The position numbers and the translations under genes were made by a program. Below are positions 3,316 to 10,961 of a stretch of DNA of 33,994 nt, one piece after another. Numbering within the stretch: the first letter of the stretch is position 1; each line of letters opens with the position of its first letter. Origin of the DNA: Opitutia bacterium. GTDB lineage: Bacteria; Verrucomicrobiota; Verrucomicrobiia; Opitutales; Opitutaceae. The stretch is from assembly GCA_947453695.1 (NCBI GenBank), contig CANGHW010000049.1, forward strand, positions 1 through 33,994, given 5' to 3'. The notes beneath the pieces were generated by a model. The model saw nothing but the letters and a program-made list of their open reading frames with translations. It made no database searches and was not told the origin of the DNA.

Positions 3316-4218
3316 TCAGAAGCGATGGAGGATGCCGAGGGTCCAGAGATCCTGCCGGTATTTCACGCCGACGAAGTTGACGGTGAACGTGCTCTCGTAA
3401 CGGAGTGGCAGGGAAGTATTGGGGCCGAGTGCGGGGGCGAGCTCGAGCCACCAGAAGTCGGAGCGCGCTTTGAAACGGTAGGTGACGTAGCCGGGGCCGA
3501 AGGAGTCGGTGGTCTCGTAGCTGAGCGTGGGGTAGTAGGCGCCGACCGCGGGCGAGATGAGACCGCCGAGGGCGCGGGCCCAGATGCGCGCGGACGCGTT
3601 GGCGGTGATGTCGCCCCACAGGCTGCCGCGGCCATAGGTGAGTTGCCAGCGATCGGTGAGGTCCCACGTGACCTGGCCGAAGAGGCGGTGGTGGCGGGTG
3701 TCGAACACGGAGTGAGGCGCGTAGTTTTGCGCCCAATCGCCGGTGAGTGACGCGCGCCAGGAGTCGGTGAAGCGTTTCGACAGGGAGAGACCAGAGGTGG
3801 CGAGCCAGCTATCGGCGCCGTTGAGACGGGAGGCGCGGCGGGCCAGCGTGACATCGGTGGTGAGCACCGGAGCGAAGGCGCCGAGGCCGAACTTCCACCG
3901 CAGGGCGGTGCGGGCGCCGGCGTGGACGGTGGAGTTGCGATCATAACGCGGCAGGCTGGTGTAACCGGCATCGACCTCGGTGATCAGGCTGACGCCGGTG
4001 ATGAGCGGAGTGAGAAGGCTGGCCGTGGCGCGGGCGTCGACTTGCACGCTATCGGTCCAATCGGACGGGCTGGAGGCGCGATTTATATTCTCCGCCCACG
4101 TGGTGGAGGTCTCCATGCGCGTGGAAATCGGCAAACGCAGGGGGGCGGTGGCGGCGAAAGCCGGAAGGCTCAGCACGCCAACGAAGGCGAGGCAGCGGAA
4201 CGACCAAGGGACGATCAT
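3316..4218 (-). CDS. Predicted outer-membrane beta-barrel protein
   Basis: This 300-residue protein has a signal peptide (about 1-23, ending PAFAA). The rest is alternating hydrophobic/polar segments rich in Tyr, Trp and Arg, typical of transmembrane beta strands. It ends in a terminal phenylalanine (LGILHRF), the usual outer-membrane assembly signal. I do not recognise a named family. Its ATG overlaps the stop codon of the upstream tesA-like gene by 4 bp (bases 4215-4218), which implies translational coupling, and the cupredoxin gene follows after 14 bp. The context suggests a barrel working with the cupredoxin and membrane cyclase; pore or receptor function is inference. A non-porin surface protein is possible. 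Confidence 0.7.
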   Translation of the reverse strand: MIVPWSFRCLAFVGVLSLPAFAATAPLRLPISTRMETSTTWAENINRASSPSDWTDSVQVDARATASLLTPLITGVSLITEVDAGYTSLPRYDRNSTVHAGARTALRWKFGLGAFAPVLTTDVTLARRASRLNGADSWLATSGLSLSKRFTDSWRASLTGDWAQNYAPHSVFDTRHHRLFGQVTWDLTDRWQLTYGRGSLWGDITANASARIWARALGGLISPAVGAYYPTLSYETTDSFGPGYVTYRFKARSDFWWLELAPALGPNTSLPLRYESTFTVNFVGVKYRQDLWTLGILHRF

Positions 4219-4868
4219 GGGGACAGGAGGGGCTTGATAACGCCCCAGACGGTCTCGGCAACCACGGCATGGCCGGCGGGGTTGGGGTGAATCTGGTCAG
4301 CCTGATTCAGCGACGCGACGCCAGCGACGCGATCAAGGAGGAACGGGATTAAGACAGCACCGGGCTTCTCGGCGAGAGCCGGGTAGATGGCGGCAAACTC
4401 GCGGGTGTAATCGGCGCCGAGCGTCGGCGGCATCATCATGCCGGCGAGGACAATTTGGGCGGAGGGATTCTTGGCGCGCACGCGTTCGATGATACGGGTG
4501 AGGTTGGTGCGGGAGATGCCTAAATCGATGCCCCGCAGACCGTCATTTGCCCCGAGGGCGAGGACGAAGAGGTCGACGGGTTGGCGCAGGATCCAATCGA
4601 CGCGGCGAAGACCGCCGGAAGTGGTTTCTCCACTCAGGCCGGCGTTGACGACGCGCCAAGGCAGGCCGGCGGCGGTGATCTTTTGCTGGATGAGGGCGGG
4701 GTAGGCGTCGGCGCCGGGATTATCGAGGCCGTAGCCGGCGGTGAGGCTGTCGCCGAAAAACACGAGGGTGCGTTCGCGGGTCTCGGTGGCGCCGCGGAGA
4801 AAGGGAGTCAAAAGGCCGCAGAGAACCGCGAGACAGGTGAGGAGAGGGGAAGGAAAACGCAGAGTCAT
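4215..4868 (-). CDS. tesA: SGNH/GDSL esterase, TesA-like (arylesterase/lysophospholipase)
   Basis: This exported hydrolase of 217 residues has a signal peptide at about 1-26. All SGNH blocks are present: nucleophile S41 in FFGDSLTAGYG, G80 in AGLSGETTSGG, N108 in LGANDGLRG, and D191/H194 in DQIHPNPAGH. Length and motifs match the E. coli TesA/arylesterase group, which cleaves acyl esters and thioesters in the periplasm. It is divergent from an ABC ATPase gene with 44 bp between starts, the same arrangement as tesA with ybbA-ybbP in proteobacteria. The stop overlaps the start of the beta-barrel gene by 4 bp, so here tesA also heads a four-gene envelope/signalling operon. The natural substrate cannot be told from sequence. 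Confidence 0.9.
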   Translation of the reverse strand: MTLRFPSPLLTCLAVLCGLLTPFLRGATETRERTLVFFGDSLTAGYGLDNPGADAYPALIQQKITAAGLPWRVVNAGLSGETTSGGLRRVDWILRQPVDLFVLALGANDGLRGIDLGISRTNLTRIIERVRAKNPSAQIVLAGMMMPPTLGADYTREFAAIYPALAEKPGAVLIPFLLDRVAGVASLNQADQIHPNPAGHAVVAETVWGVIKPLLSP

Positions 4869-4912
4869 TGCTGGCTTTTGATGCTATCGTGTCTTTCGTG
4901 AGCGGCTTAACG
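4869..4912. promoter_or_regulatory. Short divergent promoter region tesA / ABC ATPase
   Basis: Only 44 bp separate the two divergent starts (tesA 4868 minus, ABC ATPase 4913 plus), so promoter elements for both must sit here or reach into the opposing coding regions. I could not pick convincing -35/-10 boxes and no strong ribosome-binding site is visible for either gene. Confidence 0.35.
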
Positions 4913-5605
4913 ATGAGTGTTCAATCCATGCTGAAAGTCGAGCGGCTGACCAAAACGTATGCGACGGCCGGCGGCCCGCTGACGGTCCTGCGCGAAGTGA
5001 ACTTCGAACTGCTCCGCGGGGCGAGCATGGCGATCGTCGGCCCGAGCGGGAGCGGCAAGACGACGCTCCTCGGGCTGTGCGCCGGCCTCGACCGTCCCTC
5101 GGGCGGCGATGTGGTGCTCGCGGGTGAGTCGATCGGCGCCATGAACGAGGACCAGCGGGCGCTGGTGCGCAACCGGCACGTGGGCTTCGTATTTCAGAAC
5201 TTCCAGCTCGTGCCGACCCTGACGGCGCAGGAAAACGTGATGGTGCCGGTCGAATTGCGCGACGAAGGCGGCGCGGCGGCCGAGGCGCGGGCGCTGGAGC
5301 TGCTGACTCGCGTGGGACTCGGAGCGCGCGCGGACCACTACCCGGTGCAACTGTCGGGCGGCGAACAGCAGCGCGTGGCGCTCGCGCGGGCGTTCATGAA
5401 TGAGCCGAAGATTCTCTTCTGCGATGAACCGACGGGAAACCTCGATGGCGACACCGCGCATGCGATGGTGGAGCTGATCTTTGGGCTGAACCACGAGAAG
5501 CAGACGACGCTGGTGCTCGTGACGCATGACTTGGAATTGGCGAAGAAGTGTCAGCGGGTGATCCGGTTGAAGAGCGGGGCGGTGATCAGTGATGAGACGG
5601 CGTGA
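4913..5605 (+). CDS. ybbA: ABC transporter ATP-binding protein, LolD/YbbA type
   Basis: This 230-residue ATPase has Walker A GPSGSGKTT (43-51), Q-loop Q95, signature LSGGEQQR (147-154), Walker B ILFCDEPTGNLD (from 167) and the switch His205 in VTHD. The sequence is closest to the LolD/MacB/YbbA class, whose partners are FtsX-type permeases. These systems usually act on envelope lipids or lipoproteins or as mechanotransmitters rather than on small-molecule uptake. The frame is open from a TTG at 4868, but ATG 4913 is chosen because family alignments start just before LKVERLTKTY; ATG 4928 is also possible. The cognate permease gene begins at 6077; between them lies an inserted 444-bp unit, so the pair is no longer directly coupled. 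Confidence 0.92.
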   Translation: MSVQSMLKVERLTKTYATAGGPLTVLREVNFELLRGASMAIVGPSGSGKTTLLGLCAGLDRPSGGDVVLAGESIGAMNEDQRALVRNRHVGFVFQNFQLVPTLTAQENVMVPVELRDEGGAAAEARALELLTRVGLGARADHYPVQLSGGEQQRVALARAFMNEPKILFCDEPTGNLDGDTAHAMVELIFGLNHEKQTTLVLVTHDLELAKKCQRVIRLKSGAVISDETA

Positions 5606-5621
5606 AGGGGGACGGACTTTG

Positions 5622-5649
5622 GCCCACGAAACACACTAAATACACGAAA
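5622..5649 (+). repeat. Left inverted repeat of the GxxExxY unit, built of 9-bp subrepeats
   Basis: After GCC, the repeat reads as three 9-bp units, CACGAAACA, CACTAAATA and CACGAAAGG (the last running just past the repeat edge). Its final AAAG and the following GAAAA supply the only purine-rich ribosome-binding-like stretch before the ATG at 5659. Translated in frame it would give a THR-LYS-HIS-THR-LYS-TYR-THR-LYS pattern, which explains a spurious N-terminal extension of the gene. Confidence 0.85.
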
Positions 5650-5658
5650 GGAAAACCC

Positions 5659-6036
5659 ATGAGAGATCTGATCTACCCGGAGGAGTGCTACAAGATCGTT
5701 GGAGCTTGTTTTGAGGTTTATAAAGAAAAGGGCTGTGGGTTTCTGGAGGCGGTATTTCAGGAGTGTTTGGAACTGGAGCTTGGATTCCAGGGCATCCCCT
5801 TCGAGGCGCAGCAGGTATTGAAACTGAACTACAAAGGCAGCCCGCTGCAGCAGGTTTACGTCGCTGATTTCGTCTGCTATGACAAAATCATCGTTGAGAT
5901 AAAGGCCGTCTCGCATCTGACCGACGAGCATCGGGCGCAAGTTTTGAACTATCTGAATGCGACGGGTTACAAACTAGGATTGTTAGTTAATTTTGGCCAT
6001 TTCCCGAAAGTGGAGTGGGAGCGGATCGTGCTCTGA
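5659..6036 (+). CDS. GxxExxY-family protein (PD-(D/E)xK nuclease-like fold)
   Basis: This small 125-residue protein belongs to the GxxExxY family, of unknown biological role. The naming motif is present in variant form, G27-F-L-E30-A-V-F33, with Phe in place of Tyr. It also has the pattern of PD-(D/E)xK nucleases: D70 in YVADFV, E80-x-K82 in IIVEIKAV and a following Q94 in HRAQVLNYL, so a nuclease-like active site is plausible. ATG 5659 is chosen over ATG 5602 because the extra 19 residues are only the translated inverted repeat (TKHTKYTK) and an AAAGGAAAA stretch precedes 5659. The base composition looks more AT-rich than both neighbours, and the gene interrupts an ABC transporter pair, both pointing to insertion. 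Family membership is sure; function and mobility are open. Confidence 0.88.
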   Translation: MRDLIYPEECYKIVGACFEVYKEKGCGFLEAVFQECLELELGFQGIPFEAQQVLKLNYKGSPLQQVYVADFVCYDKIIVEIKAVSHLTDEHRAQVLNYLNATGYKLGLLVNFGHFPKVEWERIVL

Positions 6037-6037
6037 A

Positions 6038-6065
6038 TTTCGTGTATTTGGTGTGTTTCGTGGGC
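6038..6065 (-). repeat. Right inverted repeat of the GxxExxY unit
   Basis: This is the reverse complement of 5622-5649 with one mismatch (T versus C in the middle 9-bp unit). It starts 2 bp after the GxxExxY stop codon and ends 11 bp before the permease ATG. In RNA the two arms could pair into a 28-bp stem enclosing the whole gene. Confidence 0.85.
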
Positions 6066-6076
6066 TCCTCTTCTGA

Positions 6077-8689
6077 ATGAATTTCATCCTTAAAATGGCC
6101 TGGCGGGATTCGCGGGCTTCGCGGCGGCGGCTCGTGTTGTTTTCGCTTTCCGTGGTGCTCGGCATCGCCGCGCTCGTCGCGATCGGGTCGCTCGGGGCCA
6201 ATCTTGAACGCGCGATCGACGATCAGGCCAAGGGCCTCCTCGGGGCCGATCTGATCGTCGCGGGGCGCAATCCGCTCAGCGAGCAGGCCGTGGCGTTTGT
6301 CGATGCCCTCGGCGGCGAGCGGGCACAGGAGAAGAGTTTTACCTCGATGATGGCGTTTCCGACGGCGGAAGGGCGCACGCGGCTCGTCAATGTGCGCGCG
6401 ATGGAGGGGGCGTTTCCCTACTACGGCGATTTCACGACGGTGCCGGCAGATGCGCCGGCGAAGCTGCGGGCCGGCGGCGAGGTGGCGATCGTGGAGGAGA
6501 CACTGTTGCGGCAGTTCAATGTGTCGGTCGGGCAGCAGGTGAAGCTCGGGACCACGCTCTTCACGGTGGTGGGAGCGCTACAGAAGCTGCCAGGCGAATC
6601 ATCAGCACTGACCGCGACGATGGCGCCGCGGGCGCTGATTCCGTGGAGCACCCTGCAGGCGACCGGACTCGCGGATCGCAACGTGCTCGTGCGGCACCGC
6701 ACGATGCTGAAGCTGCCAGCGCTGACGGTGCCCGAAACGGTGGAGCGTGACATGCGGCGGCAGTTCCGAGCGGAGGGACTCGGCTTCGATACCGTGGCGG
6801 AGCGAAAGCGGAATCTCGGCCGCGTGCTCGACAACATTGAAAACTTTCTCGGGCTCGTGGGCTTCGTGGCGCTGTTTCTCGGCGCGATCGGCGTGGCGAG
6901 TGCGATTCACGTCTATGTGCAGCAGAAGATCCCGACCGTCGCGGTGCTGCGATGCCTCGGCGCGACGGCGCGACAGGCCTTCGGCGTTTATCTGATTCAA
7001 GGCGTGGCGCTGGGTATTTTCGGGGCGCTGGTGGGATCGGCGCTGGGCTTGATCGTGCAAGTGGCACTGCCGCCGATGCTCGGCGACCTGCTGCCCTTTG
7101 AGGTGAAGTTCTTCATCGCGTGGCCGGCGGTGGCGCGCGGCACAGGCGCGGGTTTCGTGATCTGTGTGCTCTTCACCTTGTTGCCGCTGCTGGCGGTGCG
7201 CCGCGTGTCGCCCCTCGTGGCGCTGCGCTCGGCGTTTGCGGAGAAGGTCAATGCGGGGCCCGATGTGTGGCGCATTGCGATCGGCGTGTTTATCGTCGCG
7301 GCCGTGGCGGGATTTTCGATATGGCAGACCGGCCGGCTGCGCGACGGGCTTGCGTTTACCGCGGTGCTCGGGGTGGGCTTCGGCATTCTCGGCGGGACGG
7401 CCAAGCTGGTGTCGTGGGCGGCGCGGCGGTGGTTTCCGCGGCGCTCGCCGTATGTCGTGCGACAGGGCGTGGCGAATCTCTACCGGCCGAACAACCGCAC
7501 GGTTCTCCTGCTGCTGTCGCTCGGTCTCGGCACGTTTTTGATGCTCACGCTTTTCCTCACGCGCACGACGCTGCTGAAGGAGATCGAATTTTCCGGCGGT
7601 GGCGGGCGGCCGAATCTGTTGTTTTTCGACATTCAGGACGACCAGATCGACGGCTTGAAGAAGGCCACGGCGGCGGAGGGTGCGCCGGTGCTGGTGGATG
7701 CGCCGATTGTGACGATGAAGATCACGGCGTTGAAGGGGCGCAAAGTGGAGCAGATCCTGCGCGATCCGGCGGCGAAGCGAGAGGCTCCGGCTGAGCCTAA
7801 GCCGGAAGGGGAAGACGCGCCGACGAAGAAGCGCATGGGGCCGGGCGGCGAGCGCCTGCCGGGCTGGACGCTGCGGCGCGAGTATCGTTCGACATTTCGC
7901 GGCGCGCTCACGGGCACGGAGCGGCTGGTGAGCGGGACCTTTACCGGCAAGGTGCGCGGTGGGGAGGCCGTGGTGCCGATTTCACTCGAAGAGGGACTCT
8001 TCAAGGACATGGGCCTCCAACTCGGCGATGAGATCGAGTGGGATGTGCAAGGCGTGCCGATGCGGACGAAAGTCGGCAGCGTGCGCGCGGTGGAGTGGCG
8101 CCGGCTGGAGCCGAACTTCTTCGTGGTGTTTCCCGAGGGTGTGCTCGAGGGCGCACCGAAGGCCTACGTCGCGGCGGTGCGCGCGGAGAACGCCGAGCAC
8201 TCGGCGCGGGTGCAGCGGGCGGTCGTCGCCGGGTTTCCGAGTGTGACGGCGATCGATCTCGCGCTCGTGATGCAGACGGTGGATGGGATTTTCTCGAAGG
8301 TGGCATTTGTCATCGAGTTCATGGCGGGCTTCACGGTTTTGACCGGCGTGATCGTGCTCGTGGGCGCGGTGCTGACGGGGCGGTTTCAACGCATCCGCGA
8401 GACGGTGCTGTTGCGCACGCTGGGTGCGACGCAGCGCCAGCTCGTGCAAATCCAATTCGTAGAATACGCGATCCTCGGCGTGCTCGCGGCAATCGTGGGC
8501 GGCGGCCTCGCGCTTGCGGGCAATTCGCTGCTGGCGAAGTTTATCTTCAACATCACGCCGAGCGTGCCGGTCGGCCTGCTGCTCTTGAGTGCGCTGGCGG
8601 TGAGTGCGGTTACTGTGGTGACGGGATTGCTCACGAATCGCGGTATCACGAACCATCCACCGCTCGAAGTGCTGCGGCAGGAAACTTAA
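6077..8689 (+). CDS. ybbP: ABC transporter permease, FtsX/YbbP type
   Basis: This is an 870-residue integral membrane protein with two FtsX-like modules, the arrangement of YbbP. An N-terminal helix (about 18-38) is followed by a MacB-like periplasmic domain (about 40-250). Helices follow at about 256-280, 303-330, 354-374, 399-416, 424-444 and 480-500, then a second soluble region (about 505-730), and three C-terminal helices with FERRIC-type coupling segments (LRTLGATQRQ, matching LRCLGATARQ in the first module). It should pair with the YbbA-like ATPase at 4913. The stretch before its ATG (CTCCTCTTCTGA) contains no Shine-Dalgarno sequence, perhaps because the inserted GxxExxY unit ends only 11 bp upstream. 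The stop overlaps the stop of the convergent esterase gene by 3-4 bp. The transported substrate is unknown. Confidence 0.9.
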   Translation: MNFILKMAWRDSRASRRRLVLFSLSVVLGIAALVAIGSLGANLERAIDDQAKGLLGADLIVAGRNPLSEQAVAFVDALGGERAQEKSFTSMMAFPTAEGRTRLVNVRAMEGAFPYYGDFTTVPADAPAKLRAGGEVAIVEETLLRQFNVSVGQQVKLGTTLFTVVGALQKLPGESSALTATMAPRALIPWSTLQATGLADRNVLVRHRTMLKLPALTVPETVERDMRRQFRAEGLGFDTVAERKRNLGRVLDNIENFLGLVGFVALFLGAIGVASAIHVYVQQKIPTVAVLRCLGATARQAFGVYLIQGVALGIFGALVGSALGLIVQVALPPMLGDLLPFEVKFFIAWPAVARGTGAGFVICVLFTLLPLLAVRRVSPLVALRSAFAEKVNAGPDVWRIAIGVFIVAAVAGFSIWQTGRLRDGLAFTAVLGVGFGILGGTAKLVSWAARRWFPRRSPYVVRQGVANLYRPNNRTVLLLLSLGLGTFLMLTLFLTRTTLLKEIEFSGGGGRPNLLFFDIQDDQIDGLKKATAAEGAPVLVDAPIVTMKITALKGRKVEQILRDPAAKREAPAEPKPEGEDAPTKKRMGPGGERLPGWTLRREYRSTFRGALTGTERLVSGTFTGKVRGGEAVVPISLEEGLFKDMGLQLGDEIEWDVQGVPMRTKVGSVRAVEWRRLEPNFFVVFPEGVLEGAPKAYVAAVRAENAEHSARVQRAVVAGFPSVTAIDLALVMQTVDGIFSKVAFVIEFMAGFTVLTGVIVLVGAVLTGRFQRIRETVLLRTLGATQRQLVQIQFVEYAILGVLAAIVGGGLALAGNSLLAKFIFNITPSVPVGLLLLSALAVSAVTVVTGLLTNRGITNHPPLEVLRQET

Positions 8690-10347
8690 CGCGCGGGCGA
8701 CGCGGCGACTTCGAGGAGGAAGGGTGCGGCGGGCAGGCCGTCGCGATTGTAGAGATTGGCGCGCGGGGCGCCGGCCCAGGCGTAGCGCACGGCGGTCGGG
8801 GCGGGCAGGGACTCGGCAGAAACGAGAACGTCCTGGCCGTCGAGGCGGGCCGTGGCCTCGCGCCATGCGCCGTCGGCGCCACGCAACTCAAAGCCGACGA
8901 GGTGGTCGGTGGGGAGGAGCGCGACGCCCCTGGCACGCCAGGGCGATTGACCGAGCGTGAGGCCGGAGCCGACCGAGTCGAAGCGCAGGCGGAGCGCCGG
9001 GCCATCGGGGCGGACGTCGCGGGCGGTGGGGCCGCGGGAGACGAGCGTTTCGCCATAGACATCGGCGCGGGCGAGGCGGGCGAGACGGAGGCCCACGTCG
9101 CGTTTACCGGCGGGATGGACGTCGGCCGGATCACCGAGGTCGTGGGTGACGGCAAGCGCGGTGCGCGGGCTGTGCAACGCGGCGAGACGCTGACCCTCGC
9201 GGAAGTCCGGCATTGCCGAGGCGTCGCCCGGTCGGGCCCAGCCGGGCAGCTGGACGACGAGAAAGGGAAACTCGCCCAGGCCCCAGCGGGCGCGCCAGTC
9301 GGCGATGAGACGGGGGAGCAGGGTTTCGTATTCCTTCGCCTGGCCGACATTGGCCTCGCCCTGATACCAGAGCGCGCCGCGCAAGGCGTAGGGGGCCAGC
9401 GGAGCGATCATGGCGTTGAAGATCACGGAAGGGGTTTGCGGCCGGGCCGAAGGGCTGGGGATGGCCATGGGGTCGGGGTTGACGGGCTCGGGCCGCTCGG
9501 GCTTCGGCGCCGTCTGCGTGGTGTCGCCGTTGGCGCGGGCCTGATTGTAGGCGCGCTGGGCGGCGGCGAACTTGGGGGCAACTTCCTTCTGCCACTGTTG
9601 CAAATCGGCGCGGTAGGCGGCGAGCGGCGACGGATCGGCCTGGAGGGCACGGTAGGCCGCCTCGGCTTTTTCCCACGTCGCGAGGTGGCGGGTAAACGGC
9701 GGTGCTTGCCGCAGGGCCGCGAGGCTGAGCCACGTTTGAATGGGTGTGCCGCCCCACGAGCTGTTGATCAACCCGACCGGGCGGCGCAAGGAGGCGCGGA
9801 GATCGCGGCCGAAAAAATACGCTACGGCAGAAAATCCGCGCGCCGTGGCGGGCGTGCACACTTCCCAGCGCCCCTGCAGCGTGGTCTGCTCTCGGGCAGA
9901 GGTTTGCTTGGTCACGACGAAGAGACGGAGCGAGGTGTCGTTGGCGCGCGGGATTTCCTCGTCGGCGTCGTGAGCGGACGACAGCGGAAACGCCATGTTC
10001 GACTGGCCGGACGCCAGCCAGACTTCGCCGACCAGCACATCGTCGAATGCAACTGTCGTGCGCCCGCTGACCGTGAGACGTTGCGGCGTGGCGCTGGCGG
10101 ACTGGCGGGGGAGCGTGACGCGCCACGTGCCGTCGGCGGCCGTCGTCGTGCTGGCCTCGGTGGCGCCGAACCGCACGGTGATCGCTTCGCCGGCGTCGGC
10201 CGTGCCCCAGACCGGCAACGGGACCTCCTGCTGGAGCACCATGTGGGAGCCAAAGATGGCGGGCAGCCGCACCTCGGCGAGCAACGGAGCAGCCAGGGCT
10301 GGCAGGAAAGCGAGGAAGACGAGGGCGGAGCGGAGGTGCGCGTGCAT
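8686..10347 (-). CDS. Sialate O-acetylesterase-like exported carbohydrate esterase
   Basis: This is a 553-residue exported esterase with a signal peptide at about 1-24. The start is ATG 10347, since an upstream in-frame ATG at 10413 would only add a Pro-rich leader before the signal sequence. An N-terminal beta domain (VLQQEVPLPVWGTA) precedes the SGNH-like core: nucleophile S116 in EVWLASGQSNM, WGGTPIQTW, the ALWYQGEAN block and the DPADVHP Asp/His block. This is the domain order of the family annotated as sialate O-acetylesterase, whose members in plant-polymer degraders more often deacetylate xylan or pectin; that substrate is inference. An Ala/Pro/Gln-rich insert (about 275-300) sits within the core. 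It is monocistronic, convergent with the permease gene and divergent from slyD. Confidence 0.87.
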   Translation of the reverse strand: MHAHLRSALVFLAFLPALAAPLLAEVRLPAIFGSHMVLQQEVPLPVWGTADAGEAITVRFGATEASTTTAADGTWRVTLPRQSASATPQRLTVSGRTTVAFDDVLVGEVWLASGQSNMAFPLSSAHDADEEIPRANDTSLRLFVVTKQTSAREQTTLQGRWEVCTPATARGFSAVAYFFGRDLRASLRRPVGLINSSWGGTPIQTWLSLAALRQAPPFTRHLATWEKAEAAYRALQADPSPLAAYRADLQQWQKEVAPKFAAAQRAYNQARANGDTTQTAPKPERPEPVNPDPMAIPSPSARPQTPSVIFNAMIAPLAPYALRGALWYQGEANVGQAKEYETLLPRLIADWRARWGLGEFPFLVVQLPGWARPGDASAMPDFREGQRLAALHSPRTALAVTHDLGDPADVHPAGKRDVGLRLARLARADVYGETLVSRGPTARDVRPDGPALRLRFDSVGSGLTLGQSPWRARGVALLPTDHLVGFELRGADGAWREATARLDGQDVLVSAESLPAPTAVRYAWAGAPRANLYNRDGLPAAPFLLEVAASPAR

Positions 10348-10460
10348 CGGGGAGGCGGGAGAGGCGGGAGGGGCGAAGCGACCAAGACGGTGATCGTCTG
10401 CAGGCGGTTGCACGAGCGAGATTGCTTTGCGGCGCCGTTCCCCGCAATGACAACGGCCTT

Positions 10461-10961
10461 ATGAGCCGACGCGTTGTCTCCTTCCACTACACCTTGCGCG
10501 ATCCCGAGGGTCGCGTCCTCGACAGTTCCGCAGGCGGCGAGCCTGTGACCTACCTCGAAGGCGCCGGCCAGATCATCGATGGACTCGATGAGCAGCTCCG
10601 GGCCGTGGAGGCGGGCGTGAAGACGCGGGTGCAGGTGCCGGCGGCGCGCGCCTACGGCGAACGCGACCCGGCACAGATTCAGCGGGTGAAACGCGGGTTG
10701 TTGCCCATCGAAGGCGAGATTCAGCTCGGCGAACAGTTTCAGACCGGGCCGGACCGGCATTCACCGGTGGTGACGGTCGTGGGCGTGGAAGGCGATGAAG
10801 TGCTGCTCGACGGCAATCACCCGCTCGCGGGTGTCGCGCTGACGTTTGATGTCGAGATCGTCGCGGCCCGTGAAGCCAAGGCCGAGGAACTCAGCCACGG
10901 CCATGCGCACGGCGGCGGGGGCGGTGAGGGCAGTTGCGGACACGGCTGCGGGTGTCACTAA
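10461..10961 (+). CDS. slyD: FKBP-type peptidyl-prolyl isomerase, SlyD-like
   Basis: This 166-residue cytoplasmic folding catalyst has split FKBP halves at about 1-68 and 118-135 and the insert-in-flap chaperone domain between (about 68-118), closed by the family motif DGNHPLAG (117-124). A metal-binding tail follows: HGHAHG, a glycine run, then CGHGCGCH, resembling the nickel-binding C-terminus of SlyD. The start is ATG 10461, because the family begins directly before VVSFHYTLRD; an earlier in-frame ATG at 10422 lies in the leader. The stop overlaps that of the convergent LacI-type regulator by 3 bp. Likely roles are general folding and nickel handling; no nickel enzyme gene is seen nearby. 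Confidence 0.92.
   Translation: MSRRVVSFHYTLRDPEGRVLDSSAGGEPVTYLEGAGQIIDGLDEQLRAVEAGVKTRVQVPAARAYGERDPAQIQRVKRGLLPIEGEIQLGEQFQTGPDRHSPVVTVVGVEGDEVLLDGNHPLAGVALTFDVEIVAAREAKAEELSHGHAHGGGGGEGSCGHGCGCH

Follow-up and report, generated by a model that had tools for sequence, protein, structure and literature searches.

A GxxExxY nuclease gene and its inverted word-array ends as a probable, hitherto unrecognised type of mobile DNA

A 33,994-nucleotide stretch of DNA from an Opitutia bacterium (the window; contig C49 in a draft genome of 6.38 Mb) raises the question of why two genes of an ABC operon are parted by an inverted repeat that encloses one small gene. A first-pass annotation had taken this gene and its ends for a small mobile unit splitting a conserved ABC pair divergent from tesA. 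The features concerned are as follows.

4215 to 4868, minus strand: GDSL esterase gene resembling TesA, the divergent neighbour; below the TesA cut-off
4916 to 5605, plus strand: YbbA-like ABC ATPase gene, the upstream neighbour; profile match below the equivalog cut-off
5622 to 5649, plus strand: left end, GCC followed by the units CACGAAA (5625), CACTAAA (5634) and CACGAAA (5643); type A
5659 to 6036, plus strand: GxxExxY/PDDEXK_3 gene of 125 residues, with profile matches and conserved E30, D70, E80 and K82
6038 to 6065, minus strand: right end, an inverted copy of the left end (27 of 28 positions) with its units on the minus strand
6077 to 8689, plus strand: YbbP-like FtsX-family permease gene, the downstream neighbour; below the equivalog cut-off

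The neighbours are thus YbbA-, YbbP- and TesA-like, as the annotation had it, and all three fall below the curated cut-offs for those names.

The unit and its protein

The two arms are 28 nt each and 96% complementary, and each carries three CACGAAA-type units spaced by 9 bp, which agrees exactly with the 28-bp ends with one mismatch and 9-bp subrepeats described at first pass. The coordinates of the gene were likewise confirmed, as the ATG at 5659 begins 9 bp past the left arm and the stop codon (6034–6036) ends 1 bp short of the right arm. The arm score was 51 against a maximum of 28 among 200 dinucleotide shuffles of 5400–6300, and triple-unit runs were detected just at the two arms in the whole window (mean of 0.01 and maximum of 1 in 100 shuffles); a chance inverted repeat was ruled out by these values. 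The content of the unit is one PDDEXK_3 gene, and no known transposase was found in it among the open reading frames or with Pfam profiles, which sets it apart from classical insertion sequences. The left end contains no stop in the frame of the gene, and reading from a GTG at 5602 extends the protein by a TKHTKYTKGK-like start (5602–5658), an N-terminus that is probably false.

The window protein clearly belongs to its family, matching PF13366 (E = 1.6e-41; 141.8 bits against a curated cut-off of 22) and TIGR04256 (E = 6.5e-42; 142.6 bits against 35). Among other Pfam profiles, DUF559 matched just below its cut-off and Y1_Tnp gave no match. In the family alignment, E30 was conserved in 210 of 210 sequences, D70 in 209 and K82 in 208, and position 80 was E in 204 with D in 5 more. 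These catalytic E, D and E-x-K residues are in place within the modelled PD-(D/E)XK fold, for which the predicted structure had a pLDDT of 93.6. The closest structural match of the model was SSO0001, which we take to be a Cas4-family nuclease; the fold is alike, and the window protein is instead a small single domain within its own element, with no CRISPR genes seen beside it. A sequence search of solved structures gave one weak match (E = 0.028). The dN value was smaller than dS in 10 of 10 nuclease gene pairs, showing that the gene is under purifying selection. Two loci, L198 and L242, are apparent repeats of L042 and L056, with contigs of equal length and identical ends; they were excluded from the residue counts and from the core and spacer counts given below, and kept in the genome_contigs end count.

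A defence-gene reading was dropped, since PADLOC-DB returned no family for any of three proteins tested. With PHROGs, one of the three had a single weak match. PMC8934634 reports a GxxExxY domain next to a reverse transcriptase, at a spot that a different program had called cas4; this agrees with the Cas4-like fold match of the window protein. No link between the GxxExxY family and end repeats was found in the openly licensed literature, and a report elsewhere is possible. The TIGR04256 and PF13366 family models themselves showed no tie to end repeats or mobility.

Spread of the unit, and its words in relation to the protein

The window's own genome holds three GxxExxY genes, every one with inverted ends, of which one uses quite a different word. 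TIGR04256 genes were present in 67 of 95 genomes, this one included, at 1–11 copies apiece. We collected 132 loci, namely 32 from the initial searches and 100 top-scoring ones, a sample that favours high-scoring genes. Inverted unit-repeat ends, defined by a flank match above the 99th percentile of shuffles, were detected in 111 of them, and the ends of the other 21 were not above the threshold. The same test scored in 48 of 788 swapped flanks, in 28 of 132 same-orientation flanks and in 4 of 216 windows of real sequence. Each end mostly has two to four units, spaced by 8, 9 or 10 bp. In genome_contigs, where at least 593 stretches matched, the best 80 were taken and 77 were usable (three had short flanks); ends were found in 61 of these 77. 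Among the latter are loci with record titles that name Chloroflexi, Bacteroidetes, Planctomycetes, Acidobacteria, Proteobacteria, Cyanobacteria and one archaeon. The swapped-flank control scored here in 159 of 611, a high value ascribed to sampling with one subfamily that has one word. The arrangement is a general one, located at differing places in numerous bacterial genomes. Searched with one subfamily, viral_contigs gave 57 stretches that fit a pattern and 0 that were confirmed, 50,697 phage records gave no match, and plasmid records gave matches in 8 of 72,556. A reading of the gene as phage or plasmid cargo was rejected on this near-absence, again for the one subfamily.

The type of end follows the protein. 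Protein identity correlated with end similarity across the 111 loci that have ends (r = 0.486); after removal of pairs with related outer flanks, the Mantel r was 0.385, and the best of 2000 permutations reached 0.071. End type thus follows protein subfamily even amid unrelated surrounding DNA. One word was traced closely. CACTRAT at a 10-bp period gave 215 matches in 15 of the 95 genomes (control, 0), and at a 9-bp period it gave 0 in all 95. The cognate subfamily, defined at 67% identity or more, occurs in nine genomes, and these hold 201 of the 215 matches; the word was found in eight of the nine versus 7 of the 86 others, which had 1–3 each. The ninth, G044, has the subfamily and no exact word match, its own element deviating in the middle unit.

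Agreement between the two ends was 95–96% in the cores of the units and 48–62% in the spacers. These values come from two-unit runs with spacings of 8, 9 and 10 bp (52, 62 and 36 loci, in overlapping sets). The runs were picked because their cores agree, so that the core value is raised by the choice and the spacer value is free of it. The pattern suggests that at the ends it is the words that are recognised, more than pairing that is selected. Contrary to selection on words only, many gene-less pairs were read by eye as having identical outer spacers, which would be expected from recent copying or from hairpin selection.

Such gene-less pairs are frequent. The first-pass annotation had proposed checking whether each pair of ends encloses a GxxExxY gene; many end copies have no gene. 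With up to three mismatches allowed, the window's own genome has 56 occurrences of the end pattern (reversed control, 0), and the ends are therefore not confined to the window. Neighbouring CACGAAA matches within 500 bp were inward-facing in 6 cases, outward in 0 and on the same strand in 13, indicating that tidy pairs are a minority in this genome. Same-strand runs of CACGAAA, CACGGAA, GCGAAT, CAATGAC and CACAAAG words were seen there at L012, L014, L015, L025 and other loci. The CACTRAT word is arranged more regularly: among the 145 of 215 matches listed, 33 of 35 neighbour pairs faced inward, 2 outward and 0 the same way. The inward pairs measure 65–270 bp from edge to edge, apart from one of 470 bp that encloses a gene. 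When 20 pairs were read fully (two of which, L311 and L312, share a flank), AACCAC...GTGGTT edges were common and the loops were mostly unrelated; T-runs often precede these pairs and A-runs often follow them. A generic CRCRRAR triplet occurred 1480 times in the 95 genomes versus 18 times in the control, and two or more such repeats were present in 57 of the 67 genomes with the gene and in 2 of the 28 without it. The latter are G029 and G033, which hold 7 and 8 repeats yet have no gene match; fewer than two were found in 10 of the 67, with zero in seven, G014 included. For the one word tested, gene-less pairs are dispersed mainly in genomes that have the cognate gene.

Occupied sites and changes of place

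The ABC site was compared over 30 permease loci, of which 28 were assessable (L075 and L077 were not; L074 and L089 were judged by eye). An intact gene was present at 12, a remnant at two (L064 and L074) and a gene-less element at one (L089), and the gene was absent at 13, so that the empty sites for which the first-pass annotation had called do exist. Six further occupied sites were reached via other loci, which places the gene there in 18 genomes. The gene-less element at L089 (G013) lies 5' of the permease and is an inverted element of another type, with GAACAGAAG and AACGAAG words. At the occupied sites, the ends were read by eye as type A (CACGAAA) in 5, type B (CACGGAA) in 7 and type C (CGCGAAT) in 6, and left and right types agree within every one of them. 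A short A-like remnant adjoins the B element at L064.

The nucleases of this site form approximately one clade (18 rows, 2 label changes), within which the B and C rows are subclades. The tree was made without L126, L152 and L191, which have internal stops, and without end-less loci except two; L152 lies outside the ABC site and yet is 75% identical to two of its members, and its inclusion would probably require more label changes. Operon and nuclease relationships conflict. Between G000 and G004, the permeases are 82% identical, the nucleases 59%, and the end types A versus B. A nuclease fragment of G004 (approximately 61 residues) is 81–83% like the B genes of five genomes, the permeases of which are only 50–54% like that of G004. 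This conflict indicates that units replace or displace one another at the site relative to the operon, where types A, B and C alternate independently of operon relatedness. An alternative to repeated fresh insertion, given that the nucleases form almost one clade, is long residence together with exchange. Permeases from the genus of the window diverge by as much as half, and given this divergence, the operon itself may have been exchanged. In a comparison of the empty G006 with its filled close relative G007, the right boundary was exact and the left was approximately 13 bp off. The element does lie between the two ABC genes, as was noted at first pass. The site is, however, old and repeatedly occupied, and is not a fresh insertion into the operon.

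Units were also found to have changed place. A relative of the window unit in G042, which belongs to another genus, has a nuclease 75% identical to that of the window (its frame has a stop) and is located between different genes, an M24-type peptidase and an Fpg-like gene, named from reading the open reading frames. Homology with the window unit runs from TTGGCCCACG to CGTGGGC, stopping near the outer edges of the unit. G067 has two copies 2.3 kb apart that share the unit and have unrelated further flanks; by anchored alignment, the left boundary is 31–43 bp outside the arm and the right 0–9 bp. Likewise, L136 and L156, which come from two congeneric species, are alike in the unit and unrelated in the outer flanks. 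Of the 120 boundaries in 30 such pairs, 70 fell no more than 15 bp from the outer edge, 21 lay further out and 29 further in. No target-site duplication was evident by eye in the G006/G007, G067, L136/L156, G042 and pstB-phoU comparisons. Gene and ends hence occur jointly as a unit at unrelated places. Within 6 kb of contig C92 of G067 (4807–10736), a four-helix-bundle gene was also seen along with a pair of GxxExxY units that are almost identical.

The pstB-phoU site (L317 and L324–L327, named from translated flanks) has differing hairpins in three relatives and none in two. It carries a CACTAAT pair in G013, a CGCAGAG-type hairpin that comes after a CACTAAT remnant in G060, and a third hairpin in G053; G021 and G050 have none. 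This pattern fits insertion into or beside existing elements.

Proposed movement, rival readings and known systems

We consider it likely that 5622–6065 is a mobile unit, that its nuclease recognises the ends of the unit itself, and that gene-less copies are moved in trans. The copies in G042 and G067, together with the tie between word and subfamily, support the small mobile gene-plus-ends unit proposed at first pass. We infer that recognition, cleavage and copying of the ends are shared by nuclease and host. The GxxExxY nuclease would bind its own word array and cut at the ends, possibly once a hairpin has formed from them in single-stranded DNA; host repair would then copy the unit into intergenic sites, often ones already holding such an element, and gene-less pairs would be copied likewise with the nuclease acting in trans. 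We know of no joining activity in this protein, and host repair is invoked because none is recognisable. If the class is mobile, homing-like break repair is tentatively preferred, since the nuclease fold has no known joining activity and sites are reused, with a RAYT-like single-strand route as the chief alternative, at lower probability.

Were the unit instead an RNA-level element, the end stem would be cut in the mRNA by RNase III, pairing would be selected, and the nuclease would be incidental. The 28-bp stem does close the predicted fold of the window element (z = −2.40; 0 of 100 shuffles equally stable), and matched outer spacers in many gene-less pairs, read by eye, point the same way. 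PMC4990558 describes the Coxiella intervening sequence as a 428-nt element that has one small ORF and is closed by a stem of 28 bp at its termini; elements of this kind are excised by RNase III. However, the ends of gene-bearing units match in their cores and poorly in their spacers, unlike the outcome of pairing-only selection, and pairing alone would not link a word to a protein subfamily. We regard this reading as improbable. A known Rfam RNA was rejected, since a search of 5500–6200 gave no match up to E = 1. About as improbable as the RNA-level reading is the view of the unit as a passenger, with a Y1 (RAYT-type) transposase, an IS transposase or some other enzyme acting on its ends. Y1_Tnp genes occur in 70 of the 95 genomes and the repeats behave in a REPIN-like manner, but G025, G031, G036, G039 and G079 hold 9–37 repeats with no Y1_Tnp match, for which RAYT-driven repeats were dropped as the main reading, and the words track the GxxExxY subfamily (the transposase survey covered Y1_Tnp).

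A vertically inherited gene at a fixed site, with ends evolving in concert and no mobility, would account for the near-single clade at one place in 18 genomes. It is contradicted by the disagreement of operon and nuclease relationships, by the close relative elsewhere in G042 (excluded from the tree for its stop) and by the two copies in G067, and it appears slightly less probable still. Neither outcome that the first-pass annotation had named as refuting its unit occurred, as the ends are abundant elsewhere in the genome, and empty sites and conserved ends both exist. Movement driven by the unit's own nuclease is therefore kept as the best explanation.

Among known systems, REPINs and their RAYTs are the nearest. 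In PMC3116915 they are inverted hairpin doublets, extragenic, with word types tied to particular proteins, and dispersed extragenic gene-less inverted doublets with protein-tied words were found here too. The doublet arrangement is evident for the CACTRAT type, with its almost wholly inward pairs, and less so for CACGAAA in the window's genome, where same-strand neighbours prevail. The enzyme differs, being a PD-(D/E)XK nuclease and not a tyrosine transposase, and the ends are tandem 7-bp words at 8–10-bp spacing; PMC3733652 gives GTAG- or CGTC-tagged palindromes for RAYTs and REPINs, where the ends here are word arrays. The 23S rRNA intervening sequence with its S23 protein (approximately 430 nt, a small ORF and a 28-bp terminal repeat; PMC4990558) resembles the window unit in that one small ORF is enclosed by long inverted repeats at the termini. 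The window ORF is PDDEXK_3 and not S23, it is intergenic in an ABC operon, and its gene-less copies are dispersed.

These features point to an unrecognised kind of mobile DNA. It is conceivable, at somewhat less than even confidence, that GxxExxY proteins are a natural set of word-reading nucleases driving mobile hairpin elements across bacteria and archaea, and that the four-helix-bundle S23 proteins with 7-bp words form a parallel class that would take in both dispersed heptamer repeats and the intervening sequences of 23S rRNA. If this is true, a very common uncharacterised nuclease family would gain a function, short dispersed repeats in many phyla would gain a source, and the known mobile elements would be joined by one that depends on a stand-alone PD-(D/E)XK nuclease. 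The tie between subfamily and word makes recognition directly testable, with many matched protein-word pairs available from sequence alone. As to the parallel class, heptamer repeats of unsettled origin have been published, and PMC4679880 suggests that a protein binding such repeats could itself be the mobile element. Four-helix-bundle (TIGR02436, S23-like) genes were present in 26 of 38 genomes, and inverted ends were found in 21 of 29 usable loci among L273–L302 (one of the 30 was dropped for short flanks). Read by eye, the end units of many of these loci are apparently 7 bp long, such as AGGAGTC, AGTAGCG and AGTTGAG.
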